Shown here piece after piece: positions 39,914-56,405 of a stretch of DNA of 64,000 nucleotides (its first letter is position 1; each line of letters begins with the position of its first letter). Origin of the DNA: Phreatobacter aquaticus (GTDB lineage Bacteria; Pseudomonadota; Alphaproteobacteria; Rhizobiales; Phreatobacteraceae); the NCBI RefSeq assembly GCF_005160265.1, contig NZ_CP039865.1:4875001-4939000 (forward strand). Reading direction: 5' to 3'. Under the pieces are notes generated by a model, which saw only the letters and a list, made by a program, of their open reading frames with translations, had not been told where the DNA came from and made no database searches. A program made the translations under genes and the position numbers.

Positions 39914-39990
39914 GGCGGGGTAGCTCAGTTGGTGAGAGCGCAGGATTCATAACCCTGAGGTCGGCAGTTCAATTCTGCCTCCCGCTACCA
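39914..39990 (+). tRNA. tRNA-Met (elongator, anticodon CAT)
   Basis: A 77-nt cloverleaf: acceptor GGCGGGG paired with TCCCGCT (two G-U pairs), D arm AGCTCAGTTGGTGAGAGC, anticodon loop TTCATAA, T arm GGCAG-TTCAATT-CTGCC, and encoded CCA. The 3' part is the attachment site of the island that follows. Confidence 0.95.
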
Positions 39991-40318
39991 TTCTTTTGGC
40001 TAGCTCTTTTTCCATCAAAGCCGAGATGTGGCTCTTGATTTCGATAAGGGGCGGCTTGTGCGGCAAGCCCGACCTTGAGACCACGCGAGAGATCAACTCG
40101 CGCAGTGCAACTCCTCCTCCTTGTTCGGTAAACTGCAGGTCCCTCAGATCAACGGCCAGATGCTCGCACGATTGAGGGCGAGCAAGAGCTGGAGCACCGA
40201 CAACGACGGCATTTGATGCATTCAGCTCGGCGCGAATTCTGTCTCTGGCGTCCTGGAGCTCATCGGCCGTCGACTTGATCGATTGACGCAGTGCCTGGCC
40301 CTCAGCGGGTCGGTTGCC
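39947..40318 (-). pseudogene. Decayed C-terminal fragment resembling a serine recombinase
   Basis: An open frame of about 123 codons without a start, running from a stop at 40319-40321 to a stop inside the tRNA-Met gene. The end contains ALRELISRVVSRSG and PPLIEIKSHISALM, like the C-terminal part of large serine recombinases (pattern ALRxLIxxVV ... IEIxGxLAALL). No catalytic N-terminal domain remains. Its place at the island edge, reading toward the tRNA, fits a former integrase. The match is by eye and weak, so other origins are possible. Confidence 0.4.
39978..39994. other. Island left attachment site (attL) in the tRNA-Met 3' end
   Basis: CCTCCCGCTACCATTCT, the last 13 bases of the tRNA plus four more, is repeated exactly at 56291-56307 and, over 15 bases, at 56391-56405. 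It marks the left border of a 16.3-kb island. Confidence 0.8.
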
Positions 40319-40331
40319 TCATTCCAGAGTT

Positions 40332-40344
40332 GGCTCACAGAGCA
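40332..40344. promoter_or_regulatory. Island palindrome, copy 1 (upstream of kinase 1)
   Basis: GGCTCACAGAGCA, 44 bp before the kinase start at 40389, matches the island motif TGCTCA-n-TGAGCA in 10 of the 12 fixed positions. A candidate MarR operator. It overlaps the region just before the recombinase remnant. Confidence 0.45.
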
Positions 40345-40388
40345 GTTTTCTGATTTGATCACGCCGACCCAAGCTCGATGGCTACCTG

Positions 40389-42665
40389 ATGAAGATCGAT
40401 TTCTGGAAACGGCGACTGGCTATCGCACTTGCCAGCCTCCTGGGATTGGCAGCGACTTTGGTCGCAGATCCCGCACGCGCCCGGTCCAGCGCCTTCGTCG
40501 GTCCAAATGCAGACTTCGCGATCGATATCGCGGGCCAATGGACGATCGAGGACATGGCCGGACCGGAAGGAGCCACTCGCTTCATCCGTGCCGACGGTGT
40601 GAGAGCCGCAAACTATGGTGCAGCGCATGGCCCGCAGGCCGCGATGTGGTTGCGCGTGGTGGTGCCGACCGACCTCACCACAGCGGGCGGTGTCGTCGTT
40701 CTGACTGTCCGGGAATCGCGAATTCGCACATTGGAGGTCTATCGGCACCAGGCCGGCGGTTTCGACACGCAAACCTGGCGCCTGGGAGTACCCTTGGACA
40801 CGGCCCGGCTTGCCACTCGCTACCCTTCGATCGCCTTGCCAGAAAGCGCGAAGGGCGAAACCATTTTCATTCGCTTCCATACGCCATCATCGATGCGGGC
40901 ATCAGTATGGCTGCAGAATGAGACCAGCTATTTGAAGACATATGTCTTCGAAATGATGTTTTTCGGCGTTCTATTCGGCGTCCTGCTTGCCCTGCTCATC
41001 TATTTTACGTCCGCAGCAGTTGCAAGCAGAGACCCGACGACAGGCGCCCTGGCCTTTCTTGTATTGTGTTTCGGATGCCACATCATCGGCGACCAGGCAT
41101 TTTTCGAAACATTCATCGTGCCAGGAGCCGTAAATGCTTCGAGGATATTGTCAATCACTGCGACTGCATTCATCTATGCGATTTCTCTCTACTATGCACT
41201 GCAGTCGCTGCGCGCGCGAGAGAACTTCCCGACATTTGGACGTGCCTTACACTATTGCGTCTGGTTCTTGGCCGCATTTGCTATTGCCGTCGCTGTTGAA
41301 ACGACAGCTGGCGGGGTCATGCTTCGTCGGCTCAGCCCAATCGTCGGGCTTTTCACCATCAGCACGGTCCTTGGGTTGGTGCTTGCCACCGCAACAAGAC
41401 AGCCTCGGCGTGCAATCGACTACATCTTGTGTTGGGGACCGGCCATGGCGACAGGTGTTGCCCGACTGATCCCTGACGTCGTGCCCCATGACGGATTCAA
41501 TCCAGTCCTCATCAATCTTCTCTACCCGGCCTTTGCGTTGTCTCTGCTGCTTGCCGGCATTTCGGCCGCAGGCGACATCAGACGCCGAGAACGCGCGCTC
41601 ACCTCGGCAGCAGCCGAGAACGCCGAGCGCTTGAGGGCCTTTGCCGAAAGCGCCTCCGACAGCTTCTGGGAAACGAACGGTGCGGGTCAGATCGTCTTCG
41701 CGTCTGGACCTGCCTCGTCCATAGCCGGCCTGGCGGTCGGAAAATCGGTTCATTCGGTGCTCGAGGCAGATCCCGGTGTCCACCTGAAGCCCGGGCAGGC
41801 CGTGTCGAGGGCACCTTTGCAGCGCGACGATGGCCATTCTGGCCATCGACACCTCCGCCTCTCGGCAGTGCCCATCGCGGGCGGCGGATGGCGCGGGATC
41901 GTCTCTGACGTCACGGATGAAGTAGCGGAAGCCGAGCGCAGCAGCCGGCAAAGCCGAATGGCGGCCATTGGCCAGATGGCCGGCGGCGTTGCCCATGAGA
42001 TCAACAATCTCCTTCATCCGGTCATCAATCTAACCCGTCGCACGAGCGAGTCCTTTGGAGAAGATGACGAGCGGCGACGCTGGCTGGATGTTGTGCGGAC
42101 CTCCGGAATGCGCGCCGCCGAAATCGTGGCCGCTCTCCTCACCTCGGTGCGTCCGATCCCCGACGACGGCCGCCGCGCGCCACTCGGCGATGCGCTCAAA
42201 GAGATCGCGGAGGAAGTGCGCGCGCTGGTTCCAGGCTCCACTCGCCTGGAGACGCGCTTCGAGCTGCAGGGAGGCCCGGTCGTTCCTGTAACCGAGGTTT
42301 TTCAGGTTGTGGCCAATCTGGTGATCAACGCGGTCCATGCCACCCGCGGCGGATCGGTTGTCCTGACCTATGGCCCAGCTGGAAACATCGCCGGCGAGTG
42401 TCTTGAACTGACCGTGGAAGATGACGGCATAGGGATGGACCAGACAACATTGCGCCGAGCGTCGGAGCCCTTCTTTTCAACAAAGCCCCAGGGAGAAGGC
42501 ACCGGCCTGGGGCTCTCCATTGTCCAAGGCATTGCCTCCCAATGGGGAGGTGAACTCAAGATCACGTCCGCTTTGGGAAAGGGGACCCGGGTCACGATTT
42601 CCCTGCCGCTCTCATTGCACAACGCGCCTGGCGAGCAAGTCACGAGACAGAGGTCCGTCGGGTGA
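40389..42665 (+). CDS. 7TM-DISM sensor histidine kinase 1
   Basis: A 758-residue membrane kinase. Order: signal peptide (1-32), periplasmic 7TMR-DISMED2-like domain (about 35-180), seven membrane segments (187-400), PAS-like domain (420-520), dimerisation domain with phosphorylated His536 in AHEINNLLHP, and ATPase domain with NLVINAVHA, DDGIGM and GEGTGLGLSIV. All catalytic boxes are intact. DISMED2 modules are thought to bind extracellular ligands such as sugars. No receiver gene adjoins it, but a paralogous kinase-receiver pair lies 8 kb away in the same island, sharing RLRxFAESASDSFWE and the His box. First gene of the island. Confidence 0.9.
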   Translation: MKIDFWKRRLAIALASLLGLAATLVADPARARSSAFVGPNADFAIDIAGQWTIEDMAGPEGATRFIRADGVRAANYGAAHGPQAAMWLRVVVPTDLTTAGGVVVLTVRESRIRTLEVYRHQAGGFDTQTWRLGVPLDTARLATRYPSIALPESAKGETIFIRFHTPSSMRASVWLQNETSYLKTYVFEMMFFGVLFGVLLALLIYFTSAAVASRDPTTGALAFLVLCFGCHIIGDQAFFETFIVPGAVNASRILSITATAFIYAISLYYALQSLRARENFPTFGRALHYCVWFLAAFAIAVAVETTAGGVMLRRLSPIVGLFTISTVLGLVLATATRQPRRAIDYILCWGPAMATGVARLIPDVVPHDGFNPVLINLLYPAFALSLLLAGISAAGDIRRRERALTSAAAENAERLRAFAESASDSFWETNGAGQIVFASGPASSIAGLAVGKSVHSVLEADPGVHLKPGQAVSRAPLQRDDGHSGHRHLRLSAVPIAGGGWRGIVSDVTDEVAEAERSSRQSRMAAIGQMAGGVAHEINNLLHPVINLTRRTSESFGEDDERRRWLDVVRTSGMRAAEIVAALLTSVRPIPDDGRRAPLGDALKEIAEEVRALVPGSTRLETRFELQGGPVVPVTEVFQVVANLVINAVHATRGGSVVLTYGPAGNIAGECLELTVEDDGIGMDQTTLRRASEPFFSTKPQGEGTGLGLSIVQGIASQWGGELKITSALGKGTRVTISLPLSLHNAPGEQVTRQRSVG

Positions 42666-42678
42666 TGCGGATCGAGAA

Positions 42679-42695
42679 GGGCGCGCAACGCGCCC
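42679..42695. terminator. Short GC hairpin between convergent genes
   Basis: GGGCGCG-CAA-CGCGCCC follows the kinase stop by 13 bp. No T run follows, so its strength as a terminator is doubtful. It sits between the convergent kinase and TPR genes. Confidence 0.35.
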
Positions 42696-42851
42696 CATGA
42701 CCCCTTGGGCAGACCGCCCGGCCGGCACTGGCCGACAGGTGCGACCAGGATTGCTGGCACAGGCAGCGAACTCAGTCAGCCCGACCAGTGCCAGAGATCG
42801 GCGCAGCCATCTCTGCACCTGACCACACGTGCCGGTTCTCGGCTGCTCCGC

Positions 42852-44564
42852 CTACCAGGGCAATGTGATCGGTGCGGCGCAGCAGGCGCGCGGCGCGCTG
42901 TTCGGCGAAAAATTGGCCAGGATGAAGCCGATCGAAGTGCCTGCGGAGCTGAAGGCTTCCTCGCTTACGGTGAATGCCAGTTCGTACCGGCGCCCCTCGC
43001 CAAAGTACTCCGCGACCACCATCCGCAGCCGGGGCCGATTGCCCATCGGAGATGTCATGGTGGCCACATAGAGATGGACCGGCCCTGCCGGGAGCACAAC
43101 GAGGGACCTTTGCTCCAGGCTGAAGTCGCGAAATGCGGACCGATCGGCTGTTGCGACCTGGGCTGCCGGGCTTCGAGCGGCGGATTGGGCGCTGGCACCG
43201 GGGGCCGATGGCGCGACCTTGAGCGACACCTGGAACAGCGCACCGGGATGATCGAGAAAGAGCTCTGACCCGGCATCCGCCGTCTGATTGAATTCAGCCG
43301 GGTATGAGACGGTGAAGGGCTTGTCGCGCATCAGTCCACGGACCGTCTCAATCCCAGTCGATGGCGCATGGGAGGGGGTTGAGGGAGCGCTCCCCTGAGC
43401 CAACTGCCTGAGATTGGGCTGGCCCGATTGGACCGGAGCTGACGCCGCCAATTGGGCGCGCGCCTTGTCTCGGCCTTCCGCTGCCGCCCGGTTGTCAGGC
43501 TCGACCGCTAGAGCCGCCTCGAAATCCTCGGCAGCCCGGCGGTGATCATTGCGCTCAGCGCGCAGACGGGCCCGCTCGACGAGGGCCTCGGCAAAGCGCG
43601 GCTCTGCCTGCATGGTTCGGTCCAGCTCGGCCAAGGCGCGATCCCCATCGCGTTGGCGCAGAAAGACGCGCGCCCGCTCAAGGCGCGCCCAGATGTTGTT
43701 GTCGATCGCAAGGGCCCGGTCGAGGGCGGAATGGGCATCCGCAAAGCGCTCGAGTTGGCTCAGAACACGCCCACGATTGACGTGTGCGACGGAGTAGCCA
43801 GGTTCGCGCGCGATCGCGCGGTCATAATCCTCCAGGGCGGCACGCAGGTTGCCTGAACGCTCCTGGGCGTGGCCCCGGTTGTTGACTGCAATCGCATAAT
43901 TGTTGGCCTCGTCGGGGTGGACGAGAACGGCGTTGCAACCAGCGATCTGGCGCTGGGCATCACCGTCGTCAGCGCAATCTTCACGCAACTGCGCATAGCT
44001 TCTCTGAGGCACGGCCGCTGCCTGCACGGCGCCCTGGATCACCCGTTGCCCACGCGCGAGGAGGGCTGGCCCGTTGTTCAAGGGCGCGAGCAAGACGAGC
44101 GTACGGGTGCGCTGTTCGTCTTGAACGGCATAGAGAACCACCTGGACCGCCTGAACTTGCCCACCGTCGCAACGCAGATCAAAGGCTCCGCGCTTGCCGT
44201 CTGGCGAAGCTCCCATGGCAATGGGGCGATGGTTGCAGAACCGGTCCGGCCGGGTCAGCCCACGCATGAACTCGGTGGCGGTTCGGTCCGGCGACAGCGG
44301 TGGTGTCTGATCTATCCAGATCAGCCGGAAAGCCGGCAGGGCCGATTCCTGTGTACGGGCCAGGAGAAGACCGGCGGCTCCACCGGGGGCAAGGGTGACC
44401 CCTTCAAGTCCGGCGCCCAGGGCCCTTTGGGTGAAGTCGATCAGCGGACAATTGGACGTATCAGTGCAGCCTGGCAAAGGCTCCCCGGGACGGCTGGGCG
44501 CTTGCGCAGAGACAACAGCCGGAATCGCGATGGCCAATATCGTCGTGAGAACGCGGGCAATCAT
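42852..44564 (-). CDS. Secreted TPR protein with island-specific N and C domains
   Basis: A 570-residue exported protein: signal peptide (1-20, ending VVSAQ), domain N (about 32-187, with NCPLIDFTQRALGAGLEGVT and NNGPALLARGQRVI), four to five TPR units (221-367), a Ser/Pro/Gln linker, and domain C (404-570, VRGLMRDKPFTVSYP to the Cys-pair end). Domain N recurs twice in the protein at 52668 and once at 54682; domain C recurs at 52668 with the same ending CC-x-xP-x-x-LPW. The start at 44564 follows GGAGAGG. Function unknown; TPRs suggest binding of a protein partner. Confidence 0.8.
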   Translation of the reverse strand: MIARVLTTILAIAIPAVVSAQAPSRPGEPLPGCTDTSNCPLIDFTQRALGAGLEGVTLAPGGAAGLLLARTQESALPAFRLIWIDQTPPLSPDRTATEFMRGLTRPDRFCNHRPIAMGASPDGKRGAFDLRCDGGQVQAVQVVLYAVQDEQRTRTLVLLAPLNNGPALLARGQRVIQGAVQAAAVPQRSYAQLREDCADDGDAQRQIAGCNAVLVHPDEANNYAIAVNNRGHAQERSGNLRAALEDYDRAIAREPGYSVAHVNRGRVLSQLERFADAHSALDRALAIDNNIWARLERARVFLRQRDGDRALAELDRTMQAEPRFAEALVERARLRAERNDHRRAAEDFEAALAVEPDNRAAAEGRDKARAQLAASAPVQSGQPNLRQLAQGSAPSTPSHAPSTGIETVRGLMRDKPFTVSYPAEFNQTADAGSELFLDHPGALFQVSLKVAPSAPGASAQSAARSPAAQVATADRSAFRDFSLEQRSLVVLPAGPVHLYVATMTSPMGNRPRLRMVVAEYFGEGRRYELAFTVSEEAFSSAGTSIGFILANFSPNSAPRACCAAPITLPW

Positions 44565-44837
44565 GGATGCCTCTCCTGGACGTGACCCAATGATGCGCAA
44601 TGGGCGCCTAAACCCGGAGACGTATCGGCCGTCTTGAGCCGCCGCGCATCCATCGCAGCCCCCCGTCCAGACTGCGAAAAGGCATCGACCCACGCCGACC
44701 GACGAGCTGCGCCGTCACGATAAGCGCCAACTCCAGAGGCGCCGGGTTCGGCCTGCCAATGTTGTCAGAGAGCCCGGGGCATGGTTGCGCAATGCCCCCG
44801 CTCCGCTTCAACAGCGGCGGAGCGGCCGCGGCAGGCG

Positions 44838-45113
44838 TCAGGGGTGAACGACGTCGATCTCGTAGAACGCGCGAAGATTGCGCAGCGTCGGATCGCGGCT
44901 CGACTGATCCTGGCTCGGGAGAACCGGCAGAATGAAGTAGGACAGTCGGGACTGACCGCGAACATTTGCGATGGTGCGGGCCGCAATTGCGAGGGCTGGG
45001 TTGACACAGGTTCCCTCTCGCGTCCGACCCTCGGGGCACACGGTCTGCGCCGAAGCGGCGGTTGGAACGGCAAGCAGCGCGGACACGATGGCAATCTTTG
45101 CAAGGCGGTTCAT
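44838..45113 (-). CDS. Small secreted protein of unknown function
   Basis: A 91-residue protein with a typical signal peptide (1-22, ending ASAQT). The mature part has two Cys early (TVCPEGRTREGTCVNPA) and no recognised domain. It ends the gene series starting with the small secreted gene at 47382 and lies 12 bp after the barrel gene, so cotranscription is likely. Island-specific as far as can be seen. Confidence 0.7.
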   Translation of the reverse strand: MNRLAKIAIVSALLAVPTAASAQTVCPEGRTREGTCVNPALAIAARTIANVRGQSRLSYFILPVLPSQDQSSRDPTLRNLRAFYEIDVVHP

Positions 45114-45125
45114 GGCTCTACTCGC

Positions 45126-46460
45126 TTAGAAGGTGATGTTGCCGCCAAGCGACAGCGTCCAGCCTGTGAAGGAAAGGGCGGGAATGGAAGTGCCCGGAAT
45201 GATGCCACCGAAGTCGATATCGGGCCTGCTGGCCTGATTGACCCAGAAATGTTCGGCGCGAACGGTGATCGCCGAGTTCGGCGCAACCTGATAGCGGGCA
45301 GATCCTCCGAGCGCCAATTTGGTCTTCGCAGGAATGAACTGGAAGGCGGTCGGCACATAAGCGTTGGAGTCACGGTGGAACCAGCTGCCGAACATCCCCA
45401 ATGTCCATTGCGGAGTGATCCGCCACGCATGGTCAAGGCGAAGGCGCAAGGCATTGCTGTTGGAGTTGAAAGCCTCGCGCTGGAACTGATTGACGGCAAG
45501 GATGAAATTCGCATTCGAGCGCGTGTGATTGAATGCGGTGGTGAACGTCGTCACGTGCTCCGGGTTCCACGTGTAGGCCGCGGTACCGGTCAGAGCGAAG
45601 GCGTCACCCTGAATGACAGCCAAGCCGCCGTCGATCCGCGTGGCGCTCGTATAGGTGTAGGTCACGGCCGCACGAAGCAGCAGGGCCCCCATGATATGGG
45701 CCAGCTGGGCGGTACCCGACGTCGATGCGCCCGGTTCAATGCGGGTGTCGAGCCCACCGAAAATGTCAGTGGGATCGCGGGTAAAGGCGCCGCGGTGCGT
45801 GTGGCTGACGCTCACGGTTGCCAATGAATTCTGGCCGATCGGTATGTTACCGCCCAGAGTGGCTCCCAAATTGAAGCCCTCACCAAATGTGGGAACTTCG
45901 ACCAGATCCGGGTCGGACCGGGCGAAGGCCTGGGTACCGGCGAGGTTGGCCCTTCCGGTCGGCAGATTGGCGTTGAGCGCGAGGAAGGGCTGGAAGCCCG
46001 GCGTTCCAAGCCAGGTCGCAGTCGCCGAGACGACCGTATCTGTCATCGTCGAGACATGGCCGACCAGACCACCGCCTGCATTCTGGCGGGCGTCGACGTA
46101 GCCGGTTCGGGCGAGCAATTCCAGCTTCACGTCCGAACCGACCAGGCCGGTCGCGGCGAAAGCAAGCGGCACATAGAATTGCGAGCCGCGGGCCGGAGTT
46201 CCCAAAGCAAAATTGTTGGGAAAGCCGCGCGGACCGCTCCAGCTCGTGTAGCGGGCTTCACTGTCGAAGACCAACGTCCAGCCAGACGAAACCGTGACCG
46301 ACGATGCCGGCGGGATGGCCACATCAGCAGCTGCCGCCGGCGTGGCCAAGGCGACCAGGCTCGCAATAACTGCACCCAAGGTCCCCGCCAAGACCGGGAA
46401 TGCCGCCGGTCGGGCGGTCCGATTCACGTTCACACTTGTATTCTTGAGCATTGGTGTCAC
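45126..46460 (-). CDS. Outer-membrane beta-barrel protein (transporter-like)
   Basis: A 444-residue protein with a long signal region (ending PAAAADV, about residue 46), then alternating polar and apolar strands to a terminal phenylalanine (GGNITF), the classic outer-membrane barrel signal. The pattern resembles MetA/phenol-degradation-type or FadL-like barrels, but the family is not certain. ATG 46460 is used; ATG 46451 is also possible. It follows the small secreted genes in the same direction and may carry or anchor their products. Confidence 0.75.
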   Translation of the reverse strand: MTPMLKNTSVNVNRTARPAAFPVLAGTLGAVIASLVALATPAAAADVAIPPASSVTVSSGWTLVFDSEARYTSWSGPRGFPNNFALGTPARGSQFYVPLAFAATGLVGSDVKLELLARTGYVDARQNAGGGLVGHVSTMTDTVVSATATWLGTPGFQPFLALNANLPTGRANLAGTQAFARSDPDLVEVPTFGEGFNLGATLGGNIPIGQNSLATVSVSHTHRGAFTRDPTDIFGGLDTRIEPGASTSGTAQLAHIMGALLLRAAVTYTYTSATRIDGGLAVIQGDAFALTGTAAYTWNPEHVTTFTTAFNHTRSNANFILAVNQFQREAFNSNSNALRLRLDHAWRITPQWTLGMFGSWFHRDSNAYVPTAFQFIPAKTKLALGGSARYQVAPNSAITVRAEHFWVNQASRPDIDFGGIIPGTSIPALSFTGWTLSLGGNITF

Positions 46461-46527
46461 TTCGGCGGCGGTGCTGACTTGAGATGGCGGATGGTGCTGC
46501 GGTGGAATGAGCGCCTTTGCTGCGGCT

Positions 46528-46878
46528 TCAGCGCCTCAGAGGGCCACGTGCCCCCAAGCCATTGTCCGATATCAACCCGCCGCCCCTGTCCGAAATCAGA
46601 GCGTTCCGGTTGTTGCTCATCAGGGCATTCGGTGGCGGGGTGATCGTGCGCGGAGGGGGGCTTCCAATGGATGTTCTGACCGGCTGCAACGTCGTGCGCG
46701 CCGTCTGCGGCGCGACATAACCAGGCGCTCCGGGCATGCGGCGCGGATTGTTGTCCCAAGGGGCACAGCCTGAAACAAACATGTTCACGTAGCCACCGCA
46801 CCCTGCGGCGAAGCTCTTCTCGGCCGACAATGTCAGCGTCGCCGCCAACAATGCGCACAATGATACTGCACGATGCAT
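46528..46878 (-). CDS. Small secreted protein, island family 1 (copy a)
   Basis: A 116-residue protein: signal peptide (1-24), then AGCGGYVNMFV and SGCAPWDNNPRRMPGAPGY, and a variable tail with Pro-rich and ISDRGGGLISDNG segments. Three paralogues (46972-47382, 51093-51449, 51470-51820) share the mature N-terminus almost residue for residue, including two Cys 11 apart, while the tails diverge. I know no named family. The start at 46878 is fixed by the signal peptide; an upstream extension is unlikely. Probably in one operon with the copy at 46972. Confidence 0.8.
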   Translation of the reverse strand: MHRAVSLCALLAATLTLSAEKSFAAGCGGYVNMFVSGCAPWDNNPRRMPGAPGYVAPQTARTTLQPVRTSIGSPPPRTITPPPNALMSNNRNALISDRGGGLISDNGLGARGPLRR

Positions 46879-46971
46879 GATGTTGCCCCCACCGATCGAT
46901 GTCGCCAGAAGTGCGGATGCCGCCGGCGCAATCGCGGCGGCACCCACCTCGGACGCGTATTCGCGCGTGCC

Positions 46972-47382
46972 TTAGCGACGATTGCCAGAGAACCCAGCAC
47001 TGTCGTTGCCGATCAGGCCAGGATTGCGATTTCCAGGGCTCAGCAATCCTGGATTGCGGTTCCCGGGGCTCAACAGGGTTGAGCCATCATTACCAATCAA
47101 CCGCGAAGGCGGCTGAACGATTCGTGTCGGCGGCTGAACGATTCGTGTCGGCGGCTGAACGATTCGTGTCGGCGGCAAACCGACGGGAGGGGATGGACGC
47201 GGAGCAACGTAACCCGGCGCACCAGGCATCCGGCGGGGATTGTTATCCCAAGGAGCACAGCCGGAGACCCAGACGTTCACGTAGCCGCCGCAGCCCGCAG
47301 CCTGGGCAGGTGACGATACGAAAAGGGCACTTCCTGCCGTAAGGGCAGTAACAAAGAATGAAACGCTGGCTGCTGCTCGCAT
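46972..47382 (-). CDS. Small secreted protein, island family 1 (copy b)
   Basis: A 136-residue protein: signal peptide (1-29), then AGCGGYVNVWV and SGCAPWDNNPRRMPGAPGY, followed by three exact seven-residue repeats of the type PTRIVQP, coded by a 21-bp tandem repeat at 47108-47170, and two copies of a NPGL-x-SPGNR type unit. The tail probably grows and shrinks by slippage. First gene of a leftward series; the perfect island palindrome lies 44 bp upstream. Confidence 0.82.
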   Translation of the reverse strand: MRAAASVSFFVTALTAGSALFVSSPAQAAGCGGYVNVWVSGCAPWDNNPRRMPGAPGYVAPRPSPPVGLPPTRIVQPPTRIVQPPTRIVQPPSRLIGNDGSTLLSPGNRNPGLLSPGNRNPGLIGNDSAGFSGNRR

Positions 47383-47425
47383 CGTGACTCTCCAGACATG
47401 AACAAAACTGAACAATTTCTAAAAT

Positions 47426-47438
47426 TGCTCAGTGAGCA
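47426..47438. promoter_or_regulatory. Island palindrome, copy 2 (perfect), between small secreted gene and marR
   Basis: TGCTCAGTGAGCA is a perfect 13-bp palindrome in the 178-bp gap between the small secreted gene (start 47382) and the divergent MarR gene (start 47561). The best candidate operator for the MarR protein, which would then control both directions. Confidence 0.65.
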
Positions 47439-47560
47439 TGTCAAGTGTCGTTTACCTCCTGCGGCGGCCTCTCAGTGACAGAGGAGGCTGTCTTGTGCAT
47501 TGTCGCAAACTGAGAGAAGCCGCATGATTCGGCGGTGGGATATCGCGAACTTCAAACACC

Positions 47561-48007
47561 ATGGCGCCAAAATCGATCAGAACTGACGTATTAGCGCGTC
47601 TCTTCGAGCAATCGACCCGTGCGCTGCACTCGTCCGGCCATAGCCACGGCCTGTTCCCCGCTCAATGGACCGCGCTGCGCTATTTCTCGACAGCCGATCG
47701 CCCACAATGCACGGCGATGAGCCTTGCTCGCTTTCAGGGAATGGCGTTCGGCCCAGTGTCCCGTACTGTCCGGACGCTCATCTCCAAGGGCTTGCTGCGC
47801 AAGGCCGGCTCCGCCGGAAAGGGACGAGCCGAACTTCTCGAGGTCTCGGACGAAGGTCGGTTGATTCTGGAGCAGGATCCGCTGGTGAGCGTGGTCGATG
47901 CACTGGCGATGTCGGATGACGCCGAGCGTGAAGCCCTTGCAAAGGCTCTGGAGCGCGTCTTGATGGCCCTTCAGTCGAAAGTCGGGCCAGATCTCGAAGC
48001 GGAATGA
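47561..48007 (+). CDS. MarR family transcriptional regulator
   Basis: A 148-residue winged-helix protein: LFPAQWTALRYFSTADRPQ before the HTH (AMSLARFQGMAFGPVSRTV), recognition region RTLISKGLLRKAGS and wing KGRAELLEVSDEGR. Helical ends for dimerisation are present. Divergent from the small secreted operon with a perfect palindrome between, so it likely regulates itself, that operon and the other island genes bearing this palindrome. The effector is unknown. Convergent with the response-regulator gene. Confidence 0.88.
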   Translation: MAPKSIRTDVLARLFEQSTRALHSSGHSHGLFPAQWTALRYFSTADRPQCTAMSLARFQGMAFGPVSRTVRTLISKGLLRKAGSAGKGRAELLEVSDEGRLILEQDPLVSVVDALAMSDDAEREALAKALERVLMALQSKVGPDLEAE

Positions 48008-48017
48008 CGCGTCCGAG

Positions 48018-48407
48018 CTAATGCGGTTGCTTGGCTACAATTGCGTCGATCGTCTGGATGAGAAGGTCTTCGTCGAAGGGTTTCACGAAGACACGCTCGG
48101 CGCCCCAAACCTCGGCGAGGGAGCCTGCGGTTTCTATCGTTAGGCGCGGACCACCTCCTGTCATGGCCAGGATGGGGAGATCGCGATTGCTTTCTCGTAT
48201 CATTTTGATCAGCTTGAGACCGTCGATGTCTGCCATCCAGATGTCAGTCACGGCGACAGCGAACCTCTTGTGGGCAAGCGCCGCAAGCGCATCGCTTCCC
48301 GAGCCTACACATGTCGGCGCATAGCCCGCGGCGGAAAGCGCCTCGAACAGTGATGCACGCACCGCTTCAACATCATCGACGACCAGAATCTCAGCCTTGA
48401 TTGACAT
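48018..48407 (-). CDS. Single-domain response regulator (CheY-like receiver)
   Basis: A 129-residue receiver with no output domain. Asp11 and Asp12 (VVDDVE) bind metal, Asp55 (VTDIWM) is the phosphoacceptor, with Thr83 and Lys109 in place. The start at 48407 overlaps the end of kinase 2 by 17 bp, so both are made together; an upstream in-frame start at 48437 is less likely. It may act as a phosphate relay or sink for both island kinases, or bind a target protein. Confidence 0.92.
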   Translation of the reverse strand: MSIKAEILVVDDVEAVRASLFEALSAAGYAPTCVGSGSDALAALAHKRFAVAVTDIWMADIDGLKLIKMIRESNRDLPILAMTGGGPRLTIETAGSLAEVWGAERVFVKPFDEDLLIQTIDAIVAKQPH

Positions 48408-50760
48408 GGGCGGTTTCCGTGTTGCGCAGAGTGACACTGGGAATGACGACGGTTATGCGGGTTCCGACACCAGGTTCCGACTGGATATCGATTGCCGCGT
48501 TCCAGGATCGGGCAATGCCGTAGACAATAGGCAGGCCAAGTCCGGTGCCTTGGCCCGGCTTCTTGGTGGTAAAGAACGGTTCCATCGCGCGAAGGCGCGT
48601 ATTCTCGTCCATGCCCTCACCATCATCCTCGACCGAGAGTGTGAACCCTACGGCAGCCGAGCCGGTAAACCGAACATCGATCCGACCACCACCTCGAGTA
48701 GCATAAATTGAATTTGCGACAAGATTGGCCAAAACTTGGAATGCCTCGTTGGCATCGACCAAAGGGCCAGGTTCCGCATAATTTTCGAAGCTGAGAATAA
48801 CCTGCTCCGGAAGCATGGTGCGCAGATTGCGAATAGCGGCCGACAAGGCCTTGTCCAAATGCGCCCTGGAATCGCCAGGCGTGGGTCTCACGCTTGTGAG
48901 CAACCCGGCCACGATCGCCGTTGCCCGAGCTCCCGAATCCGAGACGATATCCAGCAGCCGCCTTCGTTCATCATTCACCGGGATTGCCCGCGCAACGCGC
49001 CGCGAGAGGTTGACGATGGGGTGAAGCAGATTGTTGATCTCGTGAGCGACGCCGCCCGCCAATTGGCCGATAGCCGCCATCTTGCGTTGCTGAGCCACTC
49101 GCTCTTCGGCCGCGACTTCCTCAGTCATGTCCGAAACGATACCGCAAAGACCAAGTGAACCGGCCACCGGTCGAGCGCGAAAGCGGATCAAACGATAGTC
49201 CAGACGGCCTGGATCAAGGCGCAGGGTCGTAGAGGCGCGAAACTCGGCCCGATTGGAGAGGCTGGCAGCCAGCGCAGCTCTCGCGTCGGAATCGCCCCCT
49301 GATTGCTCATGGGCAAGAAGATCGCCAAGCCGAACGCCGGGGACCAGACCGATTCTTGTGCAGGTCGGGCCGGAGGCGAAGGTGACGACGCCAGACGCAT
49401 CGCATTCCCAAAAGCTGTCAGATGCACTTTCGGCAAAAGTCCGCAACCGATTGGCGCCATCCTCGGCAGCACGGCGCGCCGCACGTTCGCGGCTCTGAAG
49501 GTCAATTGCATTGGCAATTCCCGACAACAGCAGAGAAGTGCAGGACGCAAAGTAGGTAATATTGATGGCGGTAGGATCCGCTCCAATGGAGGGGATGATA
49601 TCGTGAAGCATCCTGAGCACTGCGCCCATAAACGTCGGACTCCAGCAAATCAGAAAGACCAATGCACGGCGAGGCTCCCTTGGAACCGCAGTGGCGACGA
49701 GGAAGAAGTAGCAAACGATGGCGCACATTCCGATTGGCGCCACAAACTGACGGAAAGACTGAGCCTCGACGACAACCGAAATCATCGCGGCAATCGACGT
49801 CAGGAACATTGCCCCGGCGGCCCATCCCACCAGTCGAGCGACGCGCGGATAGTGTCGGCTTGTCCGTAGAAAGAGAGGCGCATAGACCAGCATCGTACCG
49901 AAGATCAGGAACGTTCCGCCCAGAGACATCAGGCGCGCCGCCACGAGAGCTCCGGGCGCGATGATCGAGCCGACAAATGCCTGGTCGCCCAGGACGTAGC
50001 AGAGGTAGCTCAGAACCAGCGTGGCCAGAACGGCGGACACAGGATCTCGGGCAGCCAACGCCGCTGAAGCCAGATATATGGTCAAGCCCGCCAGCATGCC
50101 GAAAGCGATCCCGAACAGCAGGTTCTCAAAGGCGTAGCTGCTCAGGAAATCGAAATCGCTATGCAGCCACAACGATGCCCGCATCGATGAGGGGGTCTGA
50201 AAACGCACATAAATGGTTTTCCCGGCGATCTCTTTGCCCGGGACGATGATCACGGGATAGCGCGTAGCGAGATCCGTGGTTGGCGATCCCGCTCCAATGC
50301 GCCACTCCAGAGAGTGCCATCCCTCGCCCGTCGGGATATAGACAGTCATCGTCCGGGCGCGCGGTTCGCGCAACGCCAAGGCCTGGTCACCAGTCCGGTC
50401 GTTGACGATGGATGGCACGACCAGCCGGAGCCAAACAGCCGCAGACCCGGTTGGAGACGGACCGTAATTTGCCGCGTTTCTGCCATCGGCCCTGACGAAC
50501 GCATCTGCATCGCGAGACGCCTCGCCAATGGTCATCTGCCCTGTTGGGTCAATCAGATGATCTGCCAGCGGCCCCACAAATCGCCGGTATTCGGACCCAT
50601 TGGCCTGTGTGGCGAACGCCATTGCGACAAGTGCGAACAGGAGCGCCGCAAAACCATCGCAAACAGATCGACGCCAGGCCGGACGCCGGGCTCTCCTGCG
50701 GCCGCGCTGGCCAGATAATCCAGGCAAACGGCCTGCCCAGCCTTCAATCGACAGAACCAT
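48391..50760 (-). CDS. 7TM-DISM sensor histidine kinase 2
   Basis: A 789-residue paralogue of the kinase at 40389. Basic N-terminus and membrane signal (1-57), DISMED2-like domain (60-205), seven membrane segments (210-420), PAS-like domain, His573 in AHEINNLLHP, and ATPase boxes NLVANSIYA, DDGEGM and GQGTGLGLPIV. Kinase and ATP sites are intact. Coupled to the receiver gene downstream. A degenerate island palindrome lies 65 bp upstream. The two kinases share FHTPSSMRAS/FQTPSSMRAS in the sensor domain, so they may sense related ligands. Confidence 0.9.
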   Translation of the reverse strand: MVLSIEGWAGRLPGLSGQRGRRRARRPAWRRSVCDGFAALLFALVAMAFATQANGSEYRRFVGPLADHLIDPTGQMTIGEASRDADAFVRADGRNAANYGPSPTGSAAVWLRLVVPSIVNDRTGDQALALREPRARTMTVYIPTGEGWHSLEWRIGAGSPTTDLATRYPVIIVPGKEIAGKTIYVRFQTPSSMRASLWLHSDFDFLSSYAFENLLFGIAFGMLAGLTIYLASAALAARDPVSAVLATLVLSYLCYVLGDQAFVGSIIAPGALVAARLMSLGGTFLIFGTMLVYAPLFLRTSRHYPRVARLVGWAAGAMFLTSIAAMISVVVEAQSFRQFVAPIGMCAIVCYFFLVATAVPREPRRALVFLICWSPTFMGAVLRMLHDIIPSIGADPTAINITYFASCTSLLLSGIANAIDLQSRERAARRAAEDGANRLRTFAESASDSFWECDASGVVTFASGPTCTRIGLVPGVRLGDLLAHEQSGGDSDARAALAASLSNRAEFRASTTLRLDPGRLDYRLIRFRARPVAGSLGLCGIVSDMTEEVAAEERVAQQRKMAAIGQLAGGVAHEINNLLHPIVNLSRRVARAIPVNDERRRLLDIVSDSGARATAIVAGLLTSVRPTPGDSRAHLDKALSAAIRNLRTMLPEQVILSFENYAEPGPLVDANEAFQVLANLVANSIYATRGGGRIDVRFTGSAAVGFTLSVEDDGEGMDENTRLRAMEPFFTTKKPGQGTGLGLPIVYGIARSWNAAIDIQSEPGVGTRITVVIPSVTLRNTETAHVNQG

Positions 50761-50824
50761 CTCCTCTCGCCGCGAACGCAGTCATCGAGAGTGAAGCACC
50801 AAACATGGGAATCACCAAGTGAAT

Positions 50825-50837
50825 TGCTCACTGGTCC
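50825..50837. promoter_or_regulatory. Island palindrome, copy 3 (degenerate), upstream of kinase 2
   Basis: TGCTCACTGGTCC keeps the left half TGCTCA of the island motif and part of the right half. The bases before it (GAAT) also resemble the perfect copy. It lies in the 332-bp divergent gap between kinase 2 and the small secreted gene at 51093; that gap shows no further gene. Confidence 0.4.
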
Positions 50838-51060
50838 CTTTATGGTGCGACGTCCTGAGAAGTGGTGCCACCGTTCTGGTTGTGGTCCGTCCTGAGTTCG
50901 CCCCATCGGCTTGGATGGCCCTCTCACGCGGCTGAGCAGCGGAGGCAGAATCCCCCTGCAAGGTGCGGAGCGCCTGATGCCGGAGCGGATGAGACCCGAA
51001 GACCAGCCTGCGAAGTTGCAGTCGCCCGCGTTCTTTCCCTTGCGTTAGTCATTCTTATAT

Positions 51061-51073
51061 GGCTCACTGAGCA
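51061..51073. promoter_or_regulatory. Island palindrome, copy 4, upstream of small secreted genes
   Basis: GGCTCACTGAGCA differs from the perfect palindrome in one fixed position and keeps an 11-bp perfect core. It ends 19 bp before the ATG at 51093, where a bound repressor would block the transcript start. Confidence 0.55.
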
Positions 51074-51092
51074 TTATAAGAAGGAGATTCCC

Positions 51093-51449
51093 ATGAGAGC
51101 TGCAGTTGTGATTGCCGGACTTTGCGCAGGGTTGGCCGTTTCGATGACCGCCTCGCCTGCGAGCGCAGCGGGTTGCGGAGGCTATGTGAACGTCTGGGTT
51201 TCCGGCTGCGCGCCTTGGGACAACAATCCCCGCCGTATGCCGGGCGCTCCAGGCTACGCGCCTCCCCGCGCAACGCCTCCCCGCATAGCAACTCCGGTTT
51301 TTGCACCGCCGCAGCAGCGCATCGTCCAGCCAGGGGTCGGCAACAGGTTCATTTCGGACCAGGGCGGCGGCCTGATCAGCAACAACCGCGGTGGGCTCAT
51401 CAGCAACAACCGCGGCGGCGTGGTCTCCAACGGCGGCCCCTGGCGCTGA
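51093..51449 (+). CDS. Small secreted protein, island family 1 (copy c)
   Basis: A 118-residue protein: signal peptide (1-25, ending ASA), then AGCGGYVNVWV and SGCAPWDNNPRRMPGAPGY, a Pro-rich middle, and a tail with repeats GGLISNNR. AAGGAG lies at a good distance from ATG 51093. It is followed 20 bp later by copy d. The tail motif ISNNRGG also appears in copy d, and ISDRGGG in copy a. Function unknown. Confidence 0.85.
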   Translation: MRAAVVIAGLCAGLAVSMTASPASAAGCGGYVNVWVSGCAPWDNNPRRMPGAPGYAPPRATPPRIATPVFAPPQQRIVQPGVGNRFISDQGGGLISNNRGGLISNNRGGVVSNGGPWR

Positions 51450-51469: not shown

Positions 51470-51820
51470 ATGAAACTGATAGCGGCCTCGGCCCTCCTTG
51501 GTATCGTCATGCTTTCCGCAACTGCATCCCGGCCTGCTGAGGCGGCGGGTTGCGGCGGTTATGTCAATGTTTGGGTTTCCGGTTGTGCGCCCTGGGACAA
51601 CAATCCCCGCCGCATGCCGGGCGCTCCAGGCTACGCCGCGCCGCGCACATCGGCTCCAACGTTTGCCCCGCAGCAACCTCGCATCGTTGTTCAGCCGACG
51701 ACAGGCAACAGGTTCATCAGCACAAACGGGGGCAATCTGATCAGCAACAATCGCGGCAGAATCGTCTCCGACCACGGCGGTGGAATGGTTTCGAACGCCT
51801 CGGGCACCTTGCGCCGATGA
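51470..51820 (+). CDS. Small secreted protein, island family 1 (copy d)
   Basis: A 116-residue paralogue: signal peptide (1-25, ending AEA), AGCGGYVNVWV and SGCAPWDNNPRRMPGAPGY, then FAPQQPRIVVQP, like the tail of copy c, and NLISNNRGRIVSDHGGG. AAAGG lies before the ATG. Copies c and d probably arose by tandem duplication. The stop overlaps the start of the next gene. Confidence 0.85.
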   Translation: MKLIAASALLGIVMLSATASRPAEAAGCGGYVNVWVSGCAPWDNNPRRMPGAPGYAAPRTSAPTFAPQQPRIVVQPTTGNRFISTNGGNLISNNRGRIVSDHGGGMVSNASGTLRR

Positions 51821-52299
51821 TGGAGCCTCATCGGGGCCTGGCACTGACCATGCTGGGCCTCGGCATCCTGGTCTGCGTTCCATCTCCCGCACGGGCCGAG
51901 ACACCCGCGGCGTGCATGCGCTCACTCGACAGAACATTCGAGCAGCTGGACCGATTCAACGCCAATACCAACGCCTTGACTCTCCGCTTCACGCCAGCCA
52001 CGGCCGAGCAGCTCAGAGCCATGTCGGAATCGGAAAGACGCACCTACTTCAACAATTTCAGAGCGTTGTGCCGATCGGGGAGATCGGCCATTCCAATCTT
52101 GAACCGCATTGCGGCACGGGTGCGCTCCCCGGCTTGCAGAGCTGGCTTGACGGCTGAAGCTGCGGCGGCAGGTCAAACCTACGAAGTTCAGCTTGCTTCG
52201 ATAGCCGAAGCCGAGCAGCGGTTCCGGGAACGCATCGCCAGGCTCGACGCATCTTGTCGGGACGCAATGGCTGCAATTCGCAGAATCACGCGCCTCTGA
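51817..52299 (+). CDS. Secreted helical protein of unknown function
   Basis: A 160-residue protein with a signal peptide (ending ARAET, about residue 27). The mature part is mainly helical, with four Cys (ACMRSLDRTF, LCRSGRS, PACRAGL, SCRDAM) that could form two disulfides. It overlaps the stop of copy d by four bases (ATGA), so it is translated together with the family 1 proteins. No known family recognised. Confidence 0.7.
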   Translation: MMEPHRGLALTMLGLGILVCVPSPARAETPAACMRSLDRTFEQLDRFNANTNALTLRFTPATAEQLRAMSESERRTYFNNFRALCRSGRSAIPILNRIAARVRSPACRAGLTAEAAAAGQTYEVQLASIAEAEQRFRERIARLDASCRDAMAAIRRITRL

Positions 52300-52667: not shown

Positions 52668-54533
52668 ATGCGACTGCCCCCGTTCGTTCTCGCCCTCTTG
52701 GTCGCGGCCGCCCCGGCTTTCGCGCAGGTGCCCTCCTTCGACCCGCCGACGCTGCCGCAAAACTGCGCGTCGGGTACCGAACCCTGTCCGATGCTCGACT
52801 TCACGCGCCAGGCGCTTGCGCCGGCCCTTGACGGTGTCGTCCTGTCGATCGTGCGCGGGCAGCCGGCGCTGTTCAGCGCAACGAGCCGGGATCCTGCCTT
52901 GCCGTCATTCGTGCTCACCTGGTTTGAGGAACCGAGGCCCATGCCAGCCTCGCAGATCGTCGAAGGCTTCCTGCAGGCGATCCGGCGGCCCGGCGAGACC
53001 TGCGCTCACCGGCCGCACGGCCAGCCGACGGCAGTGGGGCTGATGTTCGTCCTGAGCTGCCGGGTCACGGCGACAGGCGTGGGCCGGCAGCTGTTCTTCT
53101 TCATCGCAAGCGGACGTCAGAGAGCCGGCGGGTTCGCGATCATGGGATCGGTCGACCAAAGCAAGGCCCTGATCGCCCGCGGCGAGCGGATGGCCCAGGC
53201 GCTGACCCAGGTCGCGCTCCGGGTTCAGGGCGGCGGCGGGCAGCCGGTTCAGCCACAGGTCGCACCACCAGTACCGCAGGCTCAGGCCGCCCCGCCGGCA
53301 ACCGTTGTGCCGCCACGGCCGCAGCAGGCGCAGGCGCCCTCTTTCGACCCACCGCCGCTGCCGCCACTCTGCACGGCCGGCACCGAGCCCTGCCCTTTGC
53401 TCGACTTCACGCGCCGGGCGCTGGCGCCCGCCCTGAATGGCGTGACTCTCGTCATCGTCCCCGGACAGGTCGCGCTGTTCGATGCGACGACCACCGATCC
53501 GGCCCTGCCGGACTTCAGTCTGGTCTGGTTCGAGCAATCTCCGCCGATCGCGCCCAACCTGGTGCTTACCCAGACAACCAACGCCATCCGTCAGCCTGGC
53601 GAGTTCTGCGTGGACCGGCCTCACGGCCAGCCGAACGCGATCGGACAGATGTTCGTCATGAGCTGCGCGACCGTCACGTCCGGCGCGGGAAGCCAGTTGT
53701 TCTTCTTCATCGCGGGCGGCCAGCAGCGAACCGGCGGATTTACGTTGCTTGGGACACTCGCCAACGGCCCGGCTCTGATTGCTCGCGGCGAGCGGATGGT
53801 CCAGGCGCTGACCCAGGTCGCGCTTCAGGGTCAGGGCGGCGGCGGGCAGCCGGTTCAGCCCCAGGTCACCCCGCCAAGGCCACAGCAGACGCAGGCCGGC
53901 GGGCAGGTCCCGAATACCGGACGCTTCACGGGCCAGCCGGCGGCTGCCCCGATCGCTCAGGCAACGCCTCAGACTCCGCCCAATGCGCGGCCCGCGGCGC
54001 CAGCCGCATCCGCCAGCCCGCCCCCCGAGGTGCGGATCCAGACTGTGCGCGGGTTGATGCGCGACAAGCCCTTCAGCCTTTCCTATCCGGACGAGTTCCA
54101 GCAGAAGGGTTCCGGATCTGAGCTGTTTCTCGACCATTCGAGGGCGCTGTTTCAGGTTTCGCTGAAGATCGCGCCGGCCGCTGCCGGCGCCAGCGCTCAG
54201 GCAGCGGCGCGCGGTCCCGCCGCCCAGGTCGCAGCAGCCGACAGGGCGGCCTTTGCCGATTTCAGCCTTGAACACCGCTCCCTGGTGATACTGCCGGCAG
54301 GCCCGACGCACATCTATGTCGCGACGATGACATCGCCGATGGGCGACCGGCCGCGGCTGCGCATGGTGGTCGCCGAACTGTTCAGCGAGGGCCGACGCTA
54401 TGAACTGGCCTTCACCACGGGCGAGGATGTCTTTGCGACAGCGGGCAACGCGATCGGCTTCATGCTGGCCAATTTCGCCCCGACCAATGCGCCTCGCACC
54501 TGTTGCGCCGAGCCTGTGTCGCTGCCGTGGTAG
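52668..54533 (+). CDS. Secreted protein with two N domains and one C domain (island family 2)
   Basis: A 621-residue exported protein: signal peptide (1-19), domain N copy 1 (about 21-185), Pro/Gln linker, domain N copy 2 (223-387), second linker, domain C (455-621). The N copies share EPCPxLDFTRxALAPAL, PHGQP, QLFFFIA and ALIARGERMxQALTQVAL. Domain C (VRGLMRDKPFSLSYP to the terminal LPW) is close to that of the TPR protein at 42852. GGAGAG precedes the start. The domains are unknown to me; the layout suggests modular binding proteins of the cell envelope. Confidence 0.8.
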   Translation: MRLPPFVLALLVAAAPAFAQVPSFDPPTLPQNCASGTEPCPMLDFTRQALAPALDGVVLSIVRGQPALFSATSRDPALPSFVLTWFEEPRPMPASQIVEGFLQAIRRPGETCAHRPHGQPTAVGLMFVLSCRVTATGVGRQLFFFIASGRQRAGGFAIMGSVDQSKALIARGERMAQALTQVALRVQGGGGQPVQPQVAPPVPQAQAAPPATVVPPRPQQAQAPSFDPPPLPPLCTAGTEPCPLLDFTRRALAPALNGVTLVIVPGQVALFDATTTDPALPDFSLVWFEQSPPIAPNLVLTQTTNAIRQPGEFCVDRPHGQPNAIGQMFVMSCATVTSGAGSQLFFFIAGGQQRTGGFTLLGTLANGPALIARGERMVQALTQVALQGQGGGGQPVQPQVTPPRPQQTQAGGQVPNTGRFTGQPAAAPIAQATPQTPPNARPAAPAASASPPPEVRIQTVRGLMRDKPFSLSYPDEFQQKGSGSELFLDHSRALFQVSLKIAPAAAGASAQAAARGPAAQVAAADRAAFADFSLEHRSLVILPAGPTHIYVATMTSPMGDRPRLRMVVAELFSEGRRYELAFTTGEDVFATAGNAIGFMLANFAPTNAPRTCCAEPVSLPW

Positions 54534-54681: not shown

Positions 54682-56091
54682 ATGCGCAAACTCTTCTTTT
54701 GGCTGGCAATGTTCATCCTGGCAGGCCCCGCCGCCGCACAAGGATCCGGCAAGCTGACGCCATTGCCCGGTGGCCCCGCCTTGCTTGATTGGGTGCGCAG
54801 CACCCTGGCCGAGGCGCTCGACGGCGTGACCCAGATCGAGCCGGGGCGCAGTCCTAGCGTGTTCATCGCCCGTACCGGAAGCCCCGACCTGCCGGTGTTC
54901 AATATCAGCGTGGTGGAGCAGATGCCGTCGGAGGCACCTGAAACCATGACGAAGGGATTCATCAGCTCCTTCCGCGCCTCCTGCGGCCCGCTCCGCTTGC
55001 GCGGCCACTTGTCTGAGAATGAGCTCTACTTCGAACACCTCTCCATCGAGTGCCCGGGCATCACCGCGTCCGGACTGTACCTCTGGATCTTGGCCTACAA
55101 GGATAGCGATCGGACACAGCTGATAGCGCTCAGTGGCAGTCTCGCCGCGACCGCGGCAATCAACGCCCGTGGCGAGAAGTTGGCGGCAGCACTCGGTCTC
55201 CGGATTTATCCCACCTCTCGCAGCCTGACCGAAGCCGTGGCGGTAGCCCAGGCCTTCTTTGGCACTCCCGACGACTATGAGCTGTCCGCTTTCACTTCGC
55301 TCGGAGGTGGGCGAGGCCGTCTCCGGGTCAAAGAAATGATCCTGACTGGCAAACCCGGCGCCTGGGAAGTGAATGCGCCGTCCTGCTCTGCCATCCGCGT
55401 GCGAGAAATCGAGGATGGTCCTCCGACCAGCGTGAGTTCGGACAGCACGATCGACCTACAGCGACTTGCCGCTCTGGTGAAGCGGCAAGGTCCCGATCTG
55501 ATCACTAGCGCGGGAGCCTATGGGACGCGCACTATCCTCGCCTCGTCACCCAGACCGGTGACCAGTCCCCTTGCTCTCGAAAGCGGCAGCCTGTCTCCTG
55601 CTTCAGCCAACTATGCACAACTGGATTCGCTCCTTGTCGCATGGGAGCGCTTCTGCGCGTCGGCAACTCCGGTTAAGGCTGAAGCAACGCAAGCGCCGGC
55701 CGGCTCATCGACGGCCACGGCCTCCGCAGCCTCCATGTCTCAGCCCGCGCCGGCAGCACCCGCGCCGTCGCAGGTTGCGCAGGCGGCGCCCGGTCAGCCC
55801 GGTGCCGCACCCCAGCGTGCCTGCGACCGGGAGGGATCGCGCACCAACATCGCGCGTGGCCGCACATCCGGCGTCATCGACGAGCCGTCTAGCGACGCAC
55901 GCGGCCCGTTCTTGAGTGTCGATGCCGCATGGTGGCGGTCGGTGTCCCAGTCGTTCCGCCAGGACATGGCCGATATCGTCCACTGCGCCTCAGGACGCTG
56001 GGGCACGCCGCTCGCACTGCGCATTCTCGACCGGACGACCCGCGCCGAGATCGGCATCTTCGCCGCCGGCAATTACAGAGCAGCGCCTTGA
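54682..56091 (+). CDS. Secreted protein with one N domain (island family 2)
   Basis: A 469-residue exported protein: signal peptide (1-20), a divergent domain N (about 22-180: ALLDWVRSTLAEALDGVT, and INARGEKLAAALG in the place of ARGERM), a middle domain, an Ala/Pro-rich linker (about 330-375), and a C-terminal region with WWRSVSQSFRQDMADIVHC. ATG 54682 follows AGGAG. It is the last gene before the right border of the island. Function unknown. Confidence 0.75.
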   Translation: MRKLFFWLAMFILAGPAAAQGSGKLTPLPGGPALLDWVRSTLAEALDGVTQIEPGRSPSVFIARTGSPDLPVFNISVVEQMPSEAPETMTKGFISSFRASCGPLRLRGHLSENELYFEHLSIECPGITASGLYLWILAYKDSDRTQLIALSGSLAATAAINARGEKLAAALGLRIYPTSRSLTEAVAVAQAFFGTPDDYELSAFTSLGGGRGRLRVKEMILTGKPGAWEVNAPSCSAIRVREIEDGPPTSVSSDSTIDLQRLAALVKRQGPDLITSAGAYGTRTILASSPRPVTSPLALESGSLSPASANYAQLDSLLVAWERFCASATPVKAEATQAPAGSSTATASAASMSQPAPAAPAPSQVAQAAPGQPGAAPQRACDREGSRTNIARGRTSGVIDEPSSDARGPFLSVDAAWWRSVSQSFRQDMADIVHCASGRWGTPLALRILDRTTRAEIGIFAAGNYRAAP

Positions 56092-56245: not shown

Positions 56246-56307
56246 GTTGGAATATCAAATTCTTGCAGTAGGCCATCAAAGGAGGAACATCCTCCCGCTA
56301 CCATTCT
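56246..56307. other. Island right border 1 (attR1) with adjoining repeat
   Basis: The last 17 bases (56291-56307) equal the tRNA-Met 3' end site at 39978-39994. The preceding GTTGG-x-ATATCAAA segment recurs exactly 100 bp further on. No gene is visible between 56092 and 56448. Confidence 0.75.
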
Positions 56308-56345: not shown

Positions 56346-56405
56346 GTTGGGATATCAAACTCAATTAGTTGGCGGTTTGCGCAACAACGCCCTCCCGCTA
56401 CCATT
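56346..56405. other. Second right border (attR2) with adjoining repeat
   Basis: CCTCCCGCTACCATT (56391-56405) repeats the tRNA 3' end over 15 bases, and the segment before it resembles 56246-56276. Two border copies suggest two related insertions, or an older one, at the same tRNA. Confidence 0.65.

Follow-up and report, generated by a model that had tools for sequence, protein, structure and literature searches.

Which regulator, if any, governs a genomic island that carries its own sensors, and can its targets be recognized from the promoters? This question is raised by four short palindromes in a 64,000-nt stretch of the chromosome of the freshwater bacterium Phreatobacter aquaticus (contig NZ_CP039865.1, positions 4,875,001 to 4,939,000; hereafter the window, with coordinates counted from its first base). 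The palindromes lie in a putative island that encodes a MarR-family regulator, two sensor histidine kinases (kin1 and kin2), a receiver protein and two predicted operons containing small secreted-looking protein genes (sspA to sspD). The initial annotation had proposed that the palindromes place the two sensors and the secreted products under one regulator. From sequence comparison we find it highly probable that the palindrome serves as operator for the island MarR, which would repress its own promoter, those of the ssp operons and, more weakly, those of the kinases. In the proposed mechanism, a MarR dimer would bind GCTCA[C/G]TGAGC with A/T-rich flanks at the promoters of marR itself, of the sspBA-barrel-TPR operon and of the operon running from sspCD onward. 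Binding would be weaker at both sensor kinase genes, and a signal releasing MarR would end repression. The 16.3-kb unit would have inserted at a tRNA-Met gene, bringing the regulator, two seven-transmembrane (7TM) sensors, the receiver protein and the secreted products.

The four palindromes are present as placed by the initial annotation, as 13-mers at 47426 (perfect), 51061 (one mismatch), 40332 (two mismatches) and 50825 (three mismatches). At the level of the 11-bp core, two are exact: GCTCAGTGAGC at 47427..47437, in the divergent sspB/marR region, which was recovered by word search, by matrix and by comparison of marR upstream regions, and GCTCACTGAGC at 51062..51072, which precedes sspC by 20 bp and is separated from kin2 by 301 bp. 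The other two are degenerate: GCTCACAGAGC at 40333..40343 (plus strand, one core mismatch) lies 45 bp before kin1, and GCTCACTGGTC at 50826..50836 (two core mismatches) lies 65 bp before kin2. The 47427 core is separated by 44 bp from the sspB ATG at 47382 and by 123 bp from the marR start. A 12-pair inverted repeat at 47407-47433, which overlaps the 47427 operator and has a terminator-like score on the minus strand, was also observed; it might act in attenuation or provide a second half-site.

In the host genome, a single contig of 4,974,952 bases, GCTCA[C/G]TGAGC occurs exactly twice. Both copies are in the island and precede small-secreted-protein genes, and none is found outside; the exact core is confined in this host to promoters of the proposed regulon. 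Equal frequency of the motif across the genome, the possibility that had been raised against a regulon, was thus not observed for the exact core. With up to one mismatch to the 13-mer, 11 sites were found compared to 3 for the reversed control; eight of the nine other near sites are inside open reading frames (ORFs) that pass a codon-position GC filter, and one, L007, fails the filter. With up to two mismatches of WGCTCANTGAGCW, the counts were 544 and 420, respectively; a word read this loosely carries little weight.

A matrix was built from 18 sites of relatives and no host site; the training sites were picked by their core, so that the invariance of the matrix core is there by construction. 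When the window was scanned with this matrix, the four named positions ranked 1 to 4 (51062, 28.7; 47427, 27.0; 40333, 15.6; 50826, 11.2). The next-best score was 7.0 at 57050, and the fifth best inside the island was 0.4. Among 207,483 positions chosen without regard to the motif, no score reached 9.

The distribution of the operator was then compared with that of marR, sought in 12 genomes of the genus, and of the ssp family, sought in these and in the other 385 genomes of the order. Five genus genomes carry marR (G000, G003, G004, G006 and G007), and the same five are the only ones of the 397 order genomes with the ssp family. The exact core occurs 22 times in the five marR+ genomes (2-7 copies each) compared to twice in the seven marR- genomes, with 3 occurrences for the reversed control in all 12; the status of two of the 22 sites, which overlap small ORFs (G006:C317:50882 and G007:C21:92210), is unclear. 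Exact sites were present in 5 of 5 marR+ versus 1 of 7 marR- genomes (Fisher p 0.015). When flanking A/T was required and any centre allowed, the counts were 16 in marR+ genomes, 4 in marR- genomes and 0 in the reversed control. Within the genus, the operator follows the presence of marR with one exception (G008).

In relatives, the operator is located between marR and the divergent ssp gene, and four related genomes have it at both the marR/ssp and the kinase promoters. GCTCACTGAGC is the only 11-mer that all seven regions upstream of marR (300-500 bp, with the host among them) have in common. It is likewise the only 11-mer common to the five kin2 regions, a comparison for which 51062 served as the host copy and the G004 stretch was trimmed to surround its own site. 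Two types of kinase locus, A and B, were distinguished: an exact site precedes kin2 in the four A-type loci of relatives (G003, G004, G006 and G007), and a one-mismatch site precedes the B-type kinases in both loci of relatives (G003 and G007). In G003, sites are also present before barrel, TPR and related genes. Exact sites of G004 and G007 precede, in addition, a DUF3592 gene and a gene for a secreted-looking protein that is present in 12 of 12 genus genomes; this latter gene has a site in G004 and G007 only, and is without one in the three other marR+ genomes. The regulon had been described as self-contained. This holds for the present host but does not extend to G004 and G007, because exact operators there also precede genes outside the system.

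The regulator itself (47561..48007, plus strand) matches PF12802 at 28.6 bits, against a cut-off of 27. Its structural model (mean predicted local distance difference test score, pLDDT, 74.4) resembles MepR and MarR structures in Foldseek (MepR 4l9j, 2nnn and MarR 3bpx; E-values 2.4e-4 to 3.4e-4, template modelling scores 0.53-0.60), and no match to the protein was found in phages. Plasmid records with a MarR match numbered 23, of which 11 were taken, not at random, as the eight best distinct places and three weaker ones. Among 19 MarR loci, an exact core lies within 4.2 kb of marR in all 8 with the recognition helix GPV[ST]RTVRTL and in none of the 11 with other helices, seven of the eight helix-positive loci, host included, being from the genus that defined the motif. 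For this reason, Microvirga provides the sole independent helix-positive locus. On a plasmid of Microvirga sp. VF16, which belongs to another family, marR (helix GPVTRTVRTL), the receiver gene (58% identity) and a 7TMR-DISM kinase gene stand in the same order as in the host. The exact operator of this locus scores 32.5, the next best being 4.3, and precedes the kinase ORF by 65 bp and, in the other direction, a divergent gene encoding a 2221-residue protein (L190:324-6989) by 279 bp. By eye, this large protein has glycine-aspartate repeats of the RTX kind, and it has its operator region in common with the 7TM kinase.

Plasmids of Azospirillum (L186, L187 and L189) resemble the host in carrying a MarR 43-50% identical, a receiver 39-42% identical and a kinase nearby, with marR convergent to both. 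Unlike the host, they have the helix ASVARTVVTL and other cargo, and the exact operator is absent; L189 moreover has a MASE1 sensor, and L187 a CHAT-domain gene between marR and the receiver gene. A further Azospirillum MarR clade (L191-L194) is convergent to giant Ig-like domain proteins, with no receiver gene in the stretch taken. A GCTCACTGGTC core was also observed in Azospirillum thermophilum (L195:1426), where the MarR has another helix and its gene adjoins a receiver gene.

A number of observations weigh against MarR acting through this operator, including the core-based choice of training sites and the predominance of the motif-defining genus among helix-positive loci, both given above. 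Some would suit a palindrome that is there by chance, or as a repeated element without regulatory role. With up to three mismatches, the 64-kb window contains 22 matches against 29 expected and hence no enrichment; matches this loose, being at chance level, were dropped as evidence. Outside the genus, the bare exact 11-mer is found in 173 of 285 order genomes, with up to 8 copies, and the reversed control matches many too (overall, the 11-mer is in 179 of 297 order genomes, including 6 of 12 in the genus); bare motif counts outside the genus were consequently dropped as well. A chance origin is nevertheless strongly disfavoured and extremely improbable in view of the conservation at matching promoters of relatives, the lack of any other 11-mer common to all seven marR upstream regions, and the operator at a kinase promoter in Microvirga. 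The conserved operator might also be real and bound by some other chromosomal regulator, MarR being merely another target gene. Such a regulator would account for the lack of an operator before the Microvirga marR itself, for those G004 and G007 sites that are at genes far from marR, and for the marR-less genome G008, where one exact site lies within a coding gene and a second, apparently intergenic, has a matrix score of 23.0. It fits poorly with the sites mostly tracking marR within the genus, with the gene present in 12 of 12 genomes having a site only in two marR+ ones, and with the pairing of helix and operator across 19 loci. We consider another regulator very unlikely and the island MarR the likely binder of the palindrome.

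The degenerate sites call for caution, and it could be that only 47427 and 51062 work, 40333 and 50826 being chance matches and the kinases lying outside the regulon in this host. In first-order Markov sequence, scores reaching that of 40333 are expected 5 times per 5 Mb and scores reaching that of 50826 31 times. With such expectations, and with one and two core mismatches, the case for these sites is built on their position and on orthologous sites and not on their letters alone. Two loci with other helices hold degenerate sites that score as high or higher: L195 (17.4; core as at 50826; 3.7 kb from marR) is above both weak host sites, and L196 (13.8; 1.9 kb from marR) is above 50826. On the other hand, 40333 and 50826 stand 45-65 bp before kinase starts, and the related kinases have sites of their own. 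The B-type sites, GCTCACGGAGC and GCTCACCGAGC when read in the same sense, carry the same deviating base as 40333, and a form akin to 50826, GCTCACTGGT[C/T], recurs upstream of the beta-barrel gene in three relatives (G004, G006 and G007). Restriction of the regulon to the two exact sites seems rather unlikely; 40333 is probably a true site, and 50826 is possibly one. Control of two sensors and the secreted products by one regulator, as initially proposed, is supported: it is backed by the sites, by the promoters of relatives, by the co-occurrence with marR in the genus and by the helix association, and is less firm for kin1 and kin2, whose sites are weak.

An operator that overlaps the core promoter close to the start codon is the usual geometry of a repressor. 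The island sites, at 20-65 bp from start codons, are near enough for such an overlap. A consensus promoter scan of 47360-47580 and 50740-51110 located none, a further point against the proposed mechanism, and for this reason overlap of the sites with -35 and -10 elements is offered as a tentative reading. Given the sites near start codons and the general practice of MarR proteins, repression of the targets by MarR is likely. A role for MarR as an activator or dual regulator is unlikely, even though one report states that MarR proteins can activate or repress according to site position (PMC9648850) and another describes activation by BhbR2 (PMC12016517).

The label of island is backed by the opposite border, where 17 bp of the tRNA-Met end are directly repeated. 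On the left, the tRNA-Met gene (CAT anticodon; 39914..39990, plus strand, ARAGORN) forms the border, and flanking DNA comprising mnmA, a methyltransferase gene and the tRNA-Met gene matches in 12 of 12 genus genomes. The repeat, CCTCCCGCTACCATTCT, covers the 3' end of the tRNA at 39978..39994 (plus strand, attL-like) and recurs exactly at 56291..56307 (plus strand, attR-like). A further 15-bp copy at 56391-56405, 100 bp beyond the second, suggests the remnant of a second insertion, and all 3 copies of the 15-mer in the host genome are at the island. The G+C content of the island is 62.5%, compared to 66.9 and 65.8% in the flanks. Window proteins of the right flank were not found beside the tRNA in eight relatives (stretches up to 20 kb), so that the right border is placed from the direct repeat only. 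Nor were any of 10 island proteins (ssp left out) found beside the tRNA in the eight relatives. No integrase was recognized among the island proteins given to Pfam and NCBIfam, and no search was aimed at integrases. The host tRNA-Met differs from that of the eight relatives just before the common 3' end (AATTCTG versus GACTCTG), as if this end had been replaced by the island.

Both kinases are 7TMR-DISM sensor histidine kinases according to Pfam. kin1 (40389..42665, plus strand) is 67-68% identical to the B-type kinases of G007 and G003 and 44.5% to kin2; kin2 (48391..50760, minus strand) is 60.5-61.7% identical to the four A-type kinases. HATPase_c and Response_reg matches were above the Pfam cut-off, and HisKA was just under it (24.5 and 23.8 versus 26.9). 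The response regulator (48018..48407, minus strand) consists of a receiver domain, with phosphorylation landmarks recognized by eye; Pfam shows no DNA-binding or other output domain beside the receiver in this 139-aa ORF. The receiver is 75-82% identical to A-type and 50% to B-type receivers, and marR, the receiver gene and kin2 are A-type. In contrast, kin1 (67-68%) and the barrel gene (80-82%) most resemble their B-type counterparts, a type having been assumed for the G003 barrel. Judged by these identities, the island is a merger of two paralogous systems, A-type and B-type. As kin1 and the barrel are nearest to the B type and a search of the host at an E-value of 1e-8 yielded no B-type MarR, the B-type parts appear to be now under the A-type MarR.

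The remaining genes would supply the secreted products; their operon structure is predicted, and secretion is predicted from signal-like N-termini recognized by eye. Four small secreted-looking proteins of the AAGCGGYVN family were grouped by family alignment: sspA (46528..46878) and sspB (46972..47382) on the minus strand, and sspC (51093..51449) and sspD (51470..51820) on the plus strand. The ssp profile had no match to a solved structure up to an E-value of 1, and none was confirmed in viral contigs. Beyond sspA on the minus strand are a probable beta-barrel protein (45126..46448), found at an E-value of 1e-10 only in the genus among the 397 order genomes and modelled as beta-rich with a mean pLDDT of only 47.9, a small protein with a signal-like N-terminus (44838..45113), which has relatives by tblastn and no Pfam or NCBIfam match, and a TPR protein with a signal-like N-terminus (42852..44564). 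On the plus strand, sspD is directly followed by an ORF for a protein with a signal-like N-terminus and no Pfam match (51820..52299). Two genes for secreted-looking proteins lie beyond it: 52668..54533, whose product has N- and C-terminal parts in common with the TPR protein, and 54682..56091, whose product is of the same N-terminal family and has relatives in G003 and G007. The 52668-54533 gene contains an internal duplication (52722-53882; 72-76% identical), and the N-terminal unit of this gene is also present in the 54682 gene and the gene of the TPR protein.

The constant proximity of MarR, an output-less receiver and a kinase suggests that the receiver may act on MarR. We tentatively propose, as a possibility that we would not yet favour, that the kinase phosphorylates the receiver and that the receiver controls MarR, which would then serve a two-component system as its detached output domain. 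With the kinase under the same operator, a feedback loop would result, and the module would be spread by islands and plasmids and could swap its sensor (7TMR-DISM, MASE1) as well as its secreted cargo. Similar sets of MarR, receiver and kinase are present in Phreatobacter, Microvirga and Azospirillum, and, if the proposal is true, they would allow direct tests of a two-component system in which DNA binding may fall to a separate MarR protein. Likewise, if MarR acts as described, the entire acquired island would be controlled through a single short operator, readable from sequence. The helix-to-operator pairing would help to predict MarR targets, and the operator would be a first means of approaching the regulation of a secreted-looking protein family observed here in one genus only. 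Among the literature matches listed, neither the operator nor a pairing of MarR with a receiver is described; new here are the island borders, the merged paralogous systems and the recurring MarR-receiver-kinase module.

Three known systems share features with this island. In EstR of Agrobacterium, as in the host, a MarR gene lies beside its target, palindromic operators are present at the regulator and target promoters, and the regulon is small and local (PMC5201249). The EstR operator, GTTATCGCGATAAC, differs from the host letters, and the regulon proposed here extends to sensor kinases, to a receiver protein and to a secreted-looking family that was recovered from this genus only. The LciRS-LciE island of Legionella similarly is a mobile island encoding its own regulatory system and a controlled product (PMC6989116). 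There, the response regulator of the two-component system is itself reported to bind DNA, whereas the host receiver shows no DNA-binding domain and MarR is the candidate binder. RtrC of Caulobacter, also an alphaproteobacterium, has a predicted fold nearest to MepR and belongs to a two-component network linked with an adhesin (PMC9648850). Unlike the island MarR, it is described as being for the most part confined to Caulobacterales and Rhodospirillales and is annotated as hypothetical.

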